Source of the DNA: Clostridiales bacterium
GTDB lineage: Bacteria; Bacillota; Clostridia; Christensenellales; Borkfalkiaceae
DNA: 59,399 bases
NCBI GenBank assembly: GCA_015055545.1
Contig: SVHY01000007.1
Span: 1 to 59,399, forward strand
Reading direction: 5' to 3'
Part shown: piece after piece, positions 56,573-59,399 of the stretch
Numbering within the stretch: the first letter of the stretch is position 1
Layout of the letters: each line of letters starts with the position of its first letter
Notes under the pieces: generated by a model
The model's input: the letters and a program-made list of their open reading frames with translations, nothing else
Told to the model about the DNA's origin: nothing
Database searches by the model: none
Program-made: the position numbers and the translations under genes

Positions 56573-56590
56573 CTTTGCGTTTTCAAGGTG

Positions 56591-56626
56591 CAAACGATTG
56601 CTTTAAAATCGTTTGTATGGTATAAT
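56591..56626 (+). promoter_or_regulatory. Promoter of the ABC-F gene overlapped by an inverted repeat
   Basis: TTGCTT (56598-56603), 17-bp spacer and TATAAT (56621-56626). A perfect inverted repeat, CAAACGATT (56591-56599) and AATCGTTTG (56607-56615), spans the -35 and part of the spacer, so it is placed to act as an operator. Confidence 0.65.
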
Positions 56627-56656
56627 TTACAAGATAAAAATATTTTGAGGTGTTTG

Positions 56657-58234
56657 ATGTTACAGGTTACGGGTGTTTCTCTGCAATACGGCAGTAAAAA
56701 ATTGTTTGAAGACGTGAACTTGAAGTTTACGAAAGGAAATTGTTACGGGATTATCGGCGCAAACGGTGCGGGTAAATCCACGTTCTTAAAAGTCCTTTCG
56801 GGGGAAGTAGAACCGCAAAAGGGGTTTGTATCGCTTGATAAAAACGAGCGTATGTCCGTTTTGCAACAAAACCAAAACATGTACGATAACGAAACGGTTT
56901 TACGTACGGTTATGCTTGGGTATAAGCGTCTTGTGGAAGTTATGGACGAAAAGGACGCGTTATACGCAAACCCCGATTTTTCTGAAGAAGACGGCATTAA
57001 AGCTGCGGAACTGGAAAGCGAATTTGCGGAAATGAACGGCTATGACGCGGAATATCAAGCAAGTCAACTGTTGAACGCGTTGGAAATAGGCGAAGAATGG
57101 CATTATGCAATGATGAGCGATTTGGACGCAAAACAAAAGGTCCGCGTATTGCTTGCGCAAGCGCTCTTTGGCGATCCCGACGTTTTGCTTTTGGACGAGC
57201 CTACCAACAACTTGGATATCAAAACGGTGCGTTGGTTGGAAAATTATTTGATGGATTTTGAAAACACCATCATTATCGTTTCACATAACCGACATTTCTT
57301 GAATAAGGTTTGTACGAATATTTGCGACGTTGATTTCGGTAAAATCAATATGTACGTGGGTAACTACGATTTTTGGTATCAAACCAGCCAACTTCTTGCC
57401 CGTCAGCAAAAGGAACAGAACAAAAAAGCGGAACAACGCGCGAAAGAATTGCAAGAATTTATTGCTCGGTTCGCAGCCAACGCGTCTAAATCCCGTCAAG
57501 CAACTTCCCGAAAAAAAGAGCTTGAAAAACTCACGATCAACGATTTTAAACCGTCGCTTAGAAAATATCCGTTCATTGATTTTAAATTTGAAAAGGAAAT
57601 CGGGCACGATATTCTTATCGTTGAAGATTTGACGAAAAAGGGTTATTTTGAAAACCTTTCGTTCAGCGTACAGCGCGACGAAAAAATCGGCATCGTTGCG
57701 GATAAGAGCACGACGCTTACCATGCTTTACGATATTTTAATGGGTAAGGAACAACCCGATAGCGGTACGGTTAAGTGGGGTAAAACCATTTCCGTATCCT
57801 ATTTCCCGCAAAATAACAACGAATACTTCGAGGGTTGTGATTTGAACCTTGTAGAATGGCTTTCGCAGTTCTCGTTCGATCATTACGAAGAATATCTTCG
57901 TGGTTGGCTGGGAAGAATGTTGTTCTCGGGCGAAGAAGCTTTGAAAAAAGCGAAAGTGCTTTCCGGTGGCGAAAAGGTTCGCTGTATGCTTGCGAAAATG
58001 ATGCTGGAAGGTAGCAACTTCCTTGTTTTCGACGAACCGACGAACCACCTTGACTTGGAATCGATTACGGCGCTCAACAACGGTTTGAAGTCTTATCGCG
58101 GTTGTATGCTCTTGACCTCGCACGACCAAGAATTGATGAATACCGTTGCAAATAGAATTATTGAAATTAAAGATACGAAAACGTACGATAGACAGGTTAC
58201 GTACGACGAATATCTTGACGAAACACATTCCTAA
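56657..58234 (+). CDS. ABC-F family ATPase with one degenerate ATP site
   Basis: A 525-residue soluble twin-ATPase ABC-F protein (YbiT/YkpA-like), a class that acts on ribosomes. Domain 1 has an intact Walker A GANGAGKS (34-41) and Walker B LLLDEPTNNLD, but its signature is SDLDAKQK (154-161) instead of LSGGQ. Domain 2 has an intact signature LSGGEKVR and Walker B FLVFDEPTNHLD, but its Walker A is shortened to VADKSTT (Asp349-Lys350-Ser351). Both defects fall in the same composite site. A charged linker (about 245-290) joins the halves. The frame is open from 56588; ATG at 56657 follows GAGGTG. Confidence 0.92.
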   Translation: MLQVTGVSLQYGSKKLFEDVNLKFTKGNCYGIIGANGAGKSTFLKVLSGEVEPQKGFVSLDKNERMSVLQQNQNMYDNETVLRTVMLGYKRLVEVMDEKDALYANPDFSEEDGIKAAELESEFAEMNGYDAEYQASQLLNALEIGEEWHYAMMSDLDAKQKVRVLLAQALFGDPDVLLLDEPTNNLDIKTVRWLENYLMDFENTIIIVSHNRHFLNKVCTNICDVDFGKINMYVGNYDFWYQTSQLLARQQKEQNKKAEQRAKELQEFIARFAANASKSRQATSRKKELEKLTINDFKPSLRKYPFIDFKFEKEIGHDILIVEDLTKKGYFENLSFSVQRDEKIGIVADKSTTLTMLYDILMGKEQPDSGTVKWGKTISVSYFPQNNNEYFEGCDLNLVEWLSQFSFDHYEEYLRGWLGRMLFSGEEALKKAKVLSGGEKVRCMLAKMMLEGSNFLVFDEPTNHLDLESITALNNGLKSYRGCMLLTSHDQELMNTVANRIIEIKDTKTYDRQVTYDEYLDETHS

Positions 58235-58253: not shown

Positions 58254-58282
58254 AACGCTGCAGTTTATGCGGCGTTTTTTCT
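58254..58282 (+). terminator. Intrinsic terminator after the ABC-F gene
   Basis: AACGCTGCA (58254-58262) pairs with TGCGGCGTT (58268-58276) with one G-T pair, loop GTTTA, then a T run. Confidence 0.82.
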
Positions 58283-58296
58283 TGCTTTCGACGCGC

Positions 58297-58305
58297 TTCG
58301 ACAAA
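58297..58305 (-). promoter_or_regulatory. Perfect 0A box upstream of spo0A
   Basis: TTCGACAAA on the plus strand is the reverse complement of TTTGTCGAA, containing the Spo0A-binding core TGTCGAA. It lies about 70 bases upstream of the -35 of spo0A. A weaker match, TTGGCGAAA, lies in the leader near 58424. Confidence 0.6.
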
Positions 58306-58313
58306 TAAAAACA

Positions 58314-58370
58314 ATTATTGTACAATAATATGTCATTATTTTGAAAAATATTTTATAATATTGTACAATA
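58314..58370. promoter_or_regulatory. Two copies of a TATTGTACAATA palindrome upstream of spo0A
   Basis: Copy 1 is the 16-base perfect palindrome ATTATTGTACAATAAT (58314-58329). Copy 2 is TATTGTACAATA (58359-58370). Their centres are 43 bases apart, about four helical turns, so a dimeric regulator could bind both on one face of the DNA. Copy 2 ends four bases before the -35. Confidence 0.65.
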
Positions 58371-58374
58371 ATGC

Positions 58375-58403
58375 TTTACAAGTTAAAAAATTTGTAGTAT
58401 AAT
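58375..58403 (+). promoter_or_regulatory. Sigma-A promoter of spo0A
   Basis: TTTACA (58375-58380), 17-bp spacer and TATAAT (58398-58403), about 50 bases before the start codon. Confidence 0.82.
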
Positions 58404-58455
58404 GTGTCATGTCAACGAAAAGGTTGGCGAAAAATCAAAAAAGGAGTTATGTAGT

Positions 58456-59217
58456 ATGAAGAAACATTCGGTGATATTGCTGGAATCGAACACAGCGGTA
58501 TTAGGGCAGCTTAGAGTTGCGTTGGAAGAGAGTAATGAATTTACGATTTTACACGCAGGCGACGACGGAGACGTCGGGGTTAGGGAGATACTTGCTTTGA
58601 AACCTGATTTAGTGGTTGTGAGTATGTTCTTAAAAGGAACGGACGGTTGTGGGGTGATACGTACGGTGAAAAAGACGTGGGTGGACGCGAAAATCGTTGC
58701 GACGGGTTTACCCAACGACGGCATTATTGAACGGGCAATGGAGGACGGCGCGGCGTATTATTTGGTAAAACCGTTTTCTATTCAAACGGCGCTTGAACGT
58801 TTCCGTGAGCTTTTAAACAGTAAAGGTGGTGGCAGTAAAGAGTTATCGGTGGGAAAACGCGCGCCCGTAACGATAGAAGAAAAGATTAGTGAAATTTTTA
58901 TTTCCATCGGGATACCGCCGCATATTAAAGGCTACGGTTATTTGCGTGAAGGGATAAAGATGACGATTGAACGTCCGTACATAATCAACGCGGTAACGAA
59001 AGAGTTGTATCCGTCTATTGCAAAGAAATTCCAAACGACGGCGAGCAAGGTGGAGCGTGCAATTCGCCACGCGATTGAGGTGGCGTGGAACAGAGGTCGG
59101 ATTGATGCGATAAACGCCATTTTCGGCGCACGGATTTATCTCGGTTCGGAAAAACCAACGAATAGCGAGTTTATCGCGCTCGTTGCCGATAAGCTCATTT
59201 TAGAAAACATGATATGA
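58456..59217 (+). CDS. spo0A: Spo0A homologue with a degenerate receiver domain
   Basis: A 253-residue response regulator. The C-terminal DNA-binding domain is clearly Spo0A: IGIPPHIKGYGYLREGIKM, ELYPSIAKKFQTTASKVERAIRHAIEVAW and KPTNSEFIALVADKL. The N-terminal receiver is damaged at the phosphorylation pocket. The acidic pair after the first strand reads Leu9-Glu10-Ser11, and the phosphoacceptor, Asp56 in Bacillus, is Ser56 (VVVSMFLKGTDG). The late Lys in YYLVKPF remains. So it should not be phosphorylated in the normal way. ATG at 58456 follows AAAGGAG by nine bases; an upstream in-frame ATG at 58402 overlaps the -10 and is rejected. Confidence 0.92.
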   Translation: MKKHSVILLESNTAVLGQLRVALEESNEFTILHAGDDGDVGVREILALKPDLVVVSMFLKGTDGCGVIRTVKKTWVDAKIVATGLPNDGIIERAMEDGAAYYLVKPFSIQTALERFRELLNSKGGGSKELSVGKRAPVTIEEKISEIFISIGIPPHIKGYGYLREGIKMTIERPYIINAVTKELYPSIAKKFQTTASKVERAIRHAIEVAWNRGRIDAINAIFGARIYLGSEKPTNSEFIALVADKLILENMI

Positions 59218-59220
59218 TAA

Positions 59221-59252
59221 AAGAACGGTTGCAAGGTGCAACCGTTCTTTTT
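59221..59252 (+). terminator. Intrinsic terminator of spo0A
   Basis: AAGAACGGTTGCA (59221-59233) pairs with TGCAACCGTTCTT (59237-59249), a 13-bp stem with a three-base loop, then T residues. Confidence 0.9.
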
Positions 59253-59257
59253 GTATA

Positions 59258-59310
59258 GCGCAATTCTGTTTTGGAATTGCGCAAGAAAACCACGCGATAG
59301 TCGCGTGGTT
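59258..59310. other. Two further strong hairpins after spo0A
   Basis: GCGCAATTC (59258-59266) pairs with GAATTGCGC (59274-59282). AACCACGCGA (59288-59297) pairs with TCGCGTGGTT (59301-59310). The second has a T-rich flank on the minus strand, so it may end a leftward transcript; the pair could also belong to a structured RNA. I see no protein-coding frame here. Confidence 0.5.
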
Positions 59311-59331
59311 CGGTAGAGGTTAACCGATGAG

Positions 59332-59360
59332 TTGAAATAAAAACTCCGATTTAGTATAAT
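59332..59360 (+). promoter_or_regulatory. Promoter reading out of the window
   Basis: TTGAAA (59332-59337), 17-bp spacer and TATAAT (59355-59360). The expected transcript would start within or just before a short hairpin (TTGCGAC pairs with GTTGCAA, 59365-59384). The gene it serves lies beyond the edge. Confidence 0.55.
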
Positions 59361-59399
59361 GTAATTGCGACCTGCCAGTTGCAAAAACAAAATAAAAAA

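Follow-up and report, generated by a model that had tools for sequence, protein, structure and literature searches.

A degenerate Spo0A receiver alongside a conserved sporulation gene set in a clostridial family

In the 59,399-nucleotide stretch of DNA analyzed here (the window), the gene for the sporulation regulator Spo0A encodes a protein that combines a near invariant DNA-binding domain with a receiver domain that has lost its phosphosite. On balance we favor the reading that this Spo0A, together with those of its relatives, is a pseudo-receiver protein that still drives sporulation independently of phosphorylation, with its activity probably set by the dose of spo0A and its receiver probably serving in dimerization or in the binding of a partner or ligand. 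The phosphosite has been lost and both the spore machinery and the 0A sites have been kept, so that entry into sporulation is probably controlled in another way. The source organism is known from metagenomes alone, and all the data used here come from metagenome assemblies. The gene and its domains were located as follows.

58456..59217, + strand: spo0A, an orphan response regulator of 253 amino acids with a degenerate receiver (reading frame, Pfam, TIGR02875)
58440..58446, + strand: ribosome-binding site AAAGGAG of spo0A
58471..58800, + strand: receiver domain (Response_reg) with a predicted (beta-alpha)5 fold (Pfam; model block pLDDT 88-98 through residue 120)
58483..58488, + strand: codons 10-11, Glu-Ser replacing the Mg-binding Asp-Asp pair (translation, alignment)
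58621..58623, + strand: codon 56, AGT (Ser), replacing the phosphoacceptor Asp (translation, alignment)
58885..59196, + strand: Spo0A_C DNA-binding domain, near invariant (Pfam, fold matches, alignment)

The window protein matched TIGR02875, the NCBIfam Spo0A equivalog, over its full length (211.9 bits; cut-off 200), and Pfam placed Response_reg at residues 6-115 and Spo0A_C at residues 144-247. The Spo0A_C match (PF08769) reached 136 bits with a cut-off of 25, and that of the receiver (PF00072) 38.5 bits with a cut-off of 30.2, leaving the receiver fold recognizable. By translation, the protein has L9-E10-S11 and S56, where the B. subtilis reference sequence has the acidic pair Asp10-Asp11 and the phosphoacceptor Asp56. 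Amongst the phosphotransfer residues, those at positions 11 and 56 are lost; the protein retains the strand-4 Thr (T83) and the pocket Lys at K105, which corresponds to B. subtilis K108. The frame, start, length and residues are exactly those given by an earlier, sequence-only reading of this DNA, which had also held that the protein should be unable to take part in a phosphorelay. This was borne out, since E10, S11 and S56 replace the acidic pair and the phospho-Asp, and the protein cannot be phosphorylated in the usual manner. The description of the DNA-binding half as fully conserved was equally sound: over ~110 residues it shares 57-60% identity with the solved Spo0A DNA-binding domain (1lq1/1fc3), and most of the alignment columns that are invariant across the window's family (f1) and Lachnospiraceae fall within it.

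A sequencing error at codon 56 was ruled out, as AGT would have to change at two bases to become an Asp codon and relatives at 79-84% identity have Ser or Gly at this position. A second, canonical Spo0A, which had been considered as a possible sign that the window copy is a decaying paralogue, was not found: the window protein is the single Spo0A_C match in the source assembly (1.95 Mb in 59 contigs, 83% complete). Genomes of the same genus that are 93-96% complete mostly have one copy as well; G046 has two, both without Asp56. Elsewhere, stand-alone Spo0A_C proteins without a receiver were seen as frames of 109-139 amino acids (L141, L142, L144 and L150, from G070, G089, G074 and G097), and a 177-amino acid frame in G065 (L143) has no recognizable receiver. 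The gene is missing from 22 of 57 genus metagenome-assembled genomes (MAGs), and SpoIVA from four. Several genus contigs (L039, L040, L044, L056), as well as the window (59218-59399), end 3-180 bp past spo0A, which may explain why many incomplete genus MAGs lack spo0A. The tails are unrelated, with no 16-mers shared among four of them; by eye, those of L040 and L044 resemble insertion-sequence ends. An rRNA operon as the cause of these contig ends was ruled out, there being no rRNA in nine related loci.

Spo0A proteins were gathered from the window's genus (g1), from f1, from other families of the order and from a sample of the class, and were then aligned. Loci from public collections were assigned to f1 by identity (at least 52% to the window protein), not by label. 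The named members of f1 are Candidatus Gallimonas and Scatosoma; we infer that f1 corresponds to GTDB Borkfalkiaceae, although NCBI does not rank these two there. Asp56 is kept in only 8 of 101 distinct f1 Spo0As and an acidic residue at position 11 in 15, all five catalytic residues occur together in none, and Lys or Arg occupies the 108-equivalent position in all 101. By comparison, other Clostridia (n = 99, including the B. subtilis reference) have Asp56 in 95 and all five catalytic residues in 78, with the other families of the order being intermediate (39/47 and 32/47, respectively). The window sequence is not, therefore, a single-strain variant, as Asp56 is missing from most of f1. The sequence-only reading had asked whether Ser56 is conserved across the clade; the loss of Asp56 proved to be clade-wide, but Ser itself varies, residue 56 being Gly in 13, Ser in seven, Asn in one and Asp in one of the 22 species of g1. 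In the Gallimonas-like clade, Ser is the most frequent residue. Outside f1, residues other than Asp are scattered through further families of the order, with Glu in f10, f11, f19, f28 and f29 and Cys in f10, and they turn up in three more families elsewhere in the class. Glu56, a possible phosphomimetic, was seen in several genera of f1 (L137, L136 and L114 in g4; L115, L116 and others), as well as in G076, a genome of 96% completeness with no HisKA kinase.

In a quick tree with many weakly supported forks, computed after removal of columns 10, 11 and 56, a single branch (SH-aLRT 85) set f1 apart from all other sequences, and at least 12 changes between Asp and non-Asp at position 56 were counted across the whole tree. 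In the f1 branches that keep Asp56 (g2, g7, g15, g17 and g18), the acidic pair is already damaged, suggesting that metal binding was probably lost first. Useful intermediates with Asp56 kept or regained and a non-acidic position 11 are L117 and L129 in g7, and L048/L147 in g1.

The receiver is nevertheless a maintained domain, not debris, as judged by its fold and by purifying selection. Across the nine species pairs of g1 whose dS was not saturated, omega was ~0.12 for the receiver and 0.04 for the DNA-binding domain, values that are rough because dS, at about 1-1.5, was still close to saturation. Residues N12, D37-G38-D39, D63-G64, G84, Y101-Y102 and K105-P106-F107 are invariant in g1 receivers. 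In the AlphaFold2 model, block pLDDT was 88-98 across the receiver, followed by a flexible linker at residues 123-137; the nearest solved folds were the Spo0A DNA-binding domain and canonical receivers, the latter with a TMt of ~0.9. The receiver has probably been retained for dimerization or for the binding of a partner or ligand.

With regard to possible phosphate donors, the source genome encodes four receiver proteins, three of which are canonical and adjoin a histidine kinase, the fourth being Spo0A. All four matches are full regulators, with no stand-alone Spo0F-like receiver found among them. Each of the three histidine kinases found is paired with its own regulator, and hidden kinases among the other HATPase matches were ruled out, these being gyrase/topoisomerase subunits, MutL and HSP90. 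An unpaired histidine kinase for Spo0A was not found in the source assembly, which at 83% completeness could lack one. Amongst relatives, all eight kinases with sufficient flanking sequence were paired, one of them being the single HisKA kinase that G055 (94% complete) encodes, and the median HisKA count was 2 in f1 vs. 4 in the rest of the order.

The sequence-only reading had suggested that the lineage might be one in which Spo0A serves a role other than sporulation, and had named further sporulation genes as a means of checking this. The source genome encodes SpoIVA (1e-105), which is present in 53 of 57 genus genomes, together with SpoIIE, SpoIIGA, SpoIIAA/AB-like proteins and seven sigma-70 genes. 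The best sigma factor matches were above the cut-off for SigE (349.9 bits; cut-off 339) and SigK (291; cut-off 252), and below it for SigG (370; cut-off 372), SigF (283; cut-off 311) and SigH (147; cut-off 208). The genes that had been named are thus represented, with the sigma F and sigma G matches falling below cut-off. A non-sporulating lineage was ruled out on gene content, and cells of the lineage would be expected to sporulate. Sporulation potential in Borkfalkiaceae has previously been judged from gene presence in a MAG survey (PMC11536998). Two genomes of g10 that are 95-96% complete (G065 and G082) have Spo0A with either no SpoIVA match or a fragmentary one, which may represent recent loss of sporulation. 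Apart from the spoIIA operon, a sigma-B-like factor lies beside STAS and anti-sigma-like genes (L157, G000 C17).

The region upstream of spo0A contains the following features.

56588..58234, + strand: upstream neighbor, an ABC-F type ATPase, kept beside spo0A in the genus and not part of the switch
58254..58276, + strand: terminator-like hairpin after the upstream ABC-F gene (consensus match only)
58297..58303, - strand: 0A box TGTCGAA upstream of spo0A, a predicted autoregulation site (genus comparison)
58314..58329, no strand assigned: palindromic operator-like site ATTATTGTACAATAAT, distal
58357..58372, no strand assigned: palindromic operator-like site AATATTGTACAATAAT, proximal, 2 bp from the -35 hexamer
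58375..58403, + strand: sigma-A-type promoter TTTACA-17-TATAAT of spo0A (conserved in the genus)

Given the terminator-like hairpin, spo0A is probably its own transcription unit. In the genus, 22 of 26 loci have TGTCGAA ahead of spo0A, between -124 and -175, and its upstream density is 2.77/kb vs. a background of 0.20/kb; as a control, the same core was found in 46 of 98 spo0A upstream regions class-wide, where 2.0 were expected. A 0A box, usually of the form TTTTCGACAAAA, is also present at -93 to -135 of spoIIAA in 17 of the 24 genus loci with enough upstream sequence, including the source genome. The evidence for the latter box consists of its fixed position and its rate, as the signal of an unbiased 7-mer test at spoIIA was dominated by an apparent tRNA gene; k-mers place this gene ~100-250 bp upstream of spoIIAA across the genus (L173-L197). 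No 0A boxes were found upstream of spoIIE. Judging from their conservation, the boxes at spo0A and spoIIA are likely to be bound by Spo0A. With the late cascade present and these boxes kept in the genus, a role for Spo0A other than sporulation, as previously proposed, is not supported.

The palindromic sites were likewise conserved, with matches of at most two mismatches in 22 of 26 genus spo0A loci vs. 0.65 in shuffles. They were enriched in other f1 genera (22/30 vs. 4.7) and in the Gallimonas-like group (23/32 vs. 2.2), and weakly elsewhere. The spo0A promoter is the sole place in the source genome with exact matches, and a search tolerating one mismatch gave 25 matches vs. six for the reversed control. 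The palindrome is present in two Asp56-keeping members of the family, and so did not arise with the loss of Asp56. Of the alternatives to phosphorylation that the sequence-only reading had listed, control at the level of protein amount is favored by this conserved candidate operator specific to the spo0A promoter, with control by a ligand or partner remaining a candidate because of the purifying selection on the receiver.

In the mechanism that we favor, the Spo0A receiver of this gut clostridial family would have become a pseudo-receiver, with the loss of normal phosphate uptake. Unphosphorylated Spo0A would be active, binding 0A boxes and starting sporulation, with its own gene (autoregulation) and the spoIIA (sigma F) operon as predicted targets. 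Activity would probably be set by the amount of Spo0A, through the operator at the spo0A promoter and a 0A-box feedback loop, and the retained receiver would probably be used in dimerization or in partner or ligand binding. Several points count against this mechanism: residues 86 (Thr/Ser) and 108 (Lys) survive in part or in full, which makes some other modification conceivable; no 0A box was found at spoIIE; and the palindrome is shared with family members that keep Asp56. A broader claim, which we advance tentatively and consider doubtful as a whole, is that the entire endospore-forming family has uncoupled Spo0A from phosphorylation, having lost kinase input and using a dedicated operator for entry through transcriptional dosing of a constitutively competent Spo0A.

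A different reading, somewhat unlikely in our estimation but deserving of serious consideration, is that the pseudo-receiver is itself the sensor, with a small molecule or protein acting on a remodeled pocket or on the alpha4-beta5-alpha5 face, and transcription level being secondary. The invariant receiver residues under purifying selection, with residue 56 left to drift, and the basic residue found at the K108-equivalent position in every family member are consistent with this, as is the control of known atypical response regulators by partners or ligands (PMC12632262). However, no ligand-binding signature was identified in the receiver, and no conserved partner gene adjoins spo0A, its neighbors being the ABC-F gene upstream and groEL/groES downstream. 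It is improbable that Spo0A has taken on a new role in the lineage and given up the control of sporulation. Asp56 is regarded as essential in established Spo0A biology, and two related genera (g10 and part of g4) have Spo0A with SpoIVA absent or fragmentary; against this stand the sigma cascade and SpoIIE, SpoIVA and SpoIIGA of the source genome, and the 0A boxes kept at both promoters. Phosphorylation of Ser56 by a Ser/Thr kinase, as a substitute for phospho-Asp, has been raised as a possibility for aspartate-less receivers (PMC4395418) and would suit the Gallimonas-like clade, where Ser predominates; we nevertheless regard it as very improbable, since the mixture of G, S, N and D in g1 argues against it, nearest relatives differ at residue 56, and neither Gly nor Asn can accept phosphate from such kinases. 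A switch that relies on leftover phosphorylation, whether of a different receiver residue or by acyl phosphates, seems more improbable still: the genus keeps Asp63 and Asp37/39 without exception, but Asp63-Gly64 is a general receiver feature, and in the genus sample no acidic residue occupies the metal-binding position 11. Finally, despite the loss of catalytic residues, the chance that the window spo0A is a decaying paralogue or pseudogene is negligible for an only copy with an open frame, low omega in both domains and a conserved promoter and operator.

Endospore formation is treated as starting, in every case, with Spo0A phosphorylation, and genomes that contain spo0A are classed as spore-forming (e.g., PMC11536998). 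A family with the spore program but without the phosphosite would offer a natural experiment on which element of Spo0A control is indispensable. It would also supply the pseudo-receiver field with something that it lacks, namely a set of such proteins whose output and DNA targets are known, and the series within the family, in which the acidic pair is weakened and Asp56 then repeatedly lost, makes the order of steps open to study. We found no description of a natural Spo0A without Asp56 in the open-access literature; Spo0A is absent from a 2025 review (PMC12632262), and enters a 2015 paper only in the form of laboratory Asp-to-Glu mutants (PMC4395418).

Compared with the Spo0A of Bacillus and Clostridium (TIGR02875; PDB 1fc3, 1lq1, 1qmp), the protein described here has the same domain order and the closely similar DNA-binding domain noted above, and likewise occurs as a single copy with 0A boxes at spo0A and spoIIA and a full sporulation set. 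It differs in having no phospho-Asp, no acidic pair and no unpaired kinase found, and in its ABC-F and groEL/groES neighbors. In the direct-phosphorylation Spo0 pathway of Clostridia, orphan histidine kinases act on Asp56 (PMC6136694, PMC11210211); the absence of a detectable Spo0F-like protein is common to both, whereas here we found no orphan kinase and no Asp56. Aspartate-less and pseudo-receiver regulators similarly keep the receiver fold and lose catalytic residues, with Ser and Gly among the frequent substitutes for the receiver Asp (PMC4395418), and in other families such proteins are in many cases constitutively competent, with control through availability or partners (PMC12632262, PMC4395418). 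In the present case, by contrast, the loss spans most of a family and affects a developmental master switch. In Streptomyces, too, sporulation is run by atypical orphan response regulators, BldM and WhiI, which have NarL-type output domains; theirs is an unrelated exospore program with heterodimer regulation. BldM and WhiI control sporulation without phosphorylation, the pocket of WhiI being degenerate and BldM D54A being able to complement (PMC4125116).
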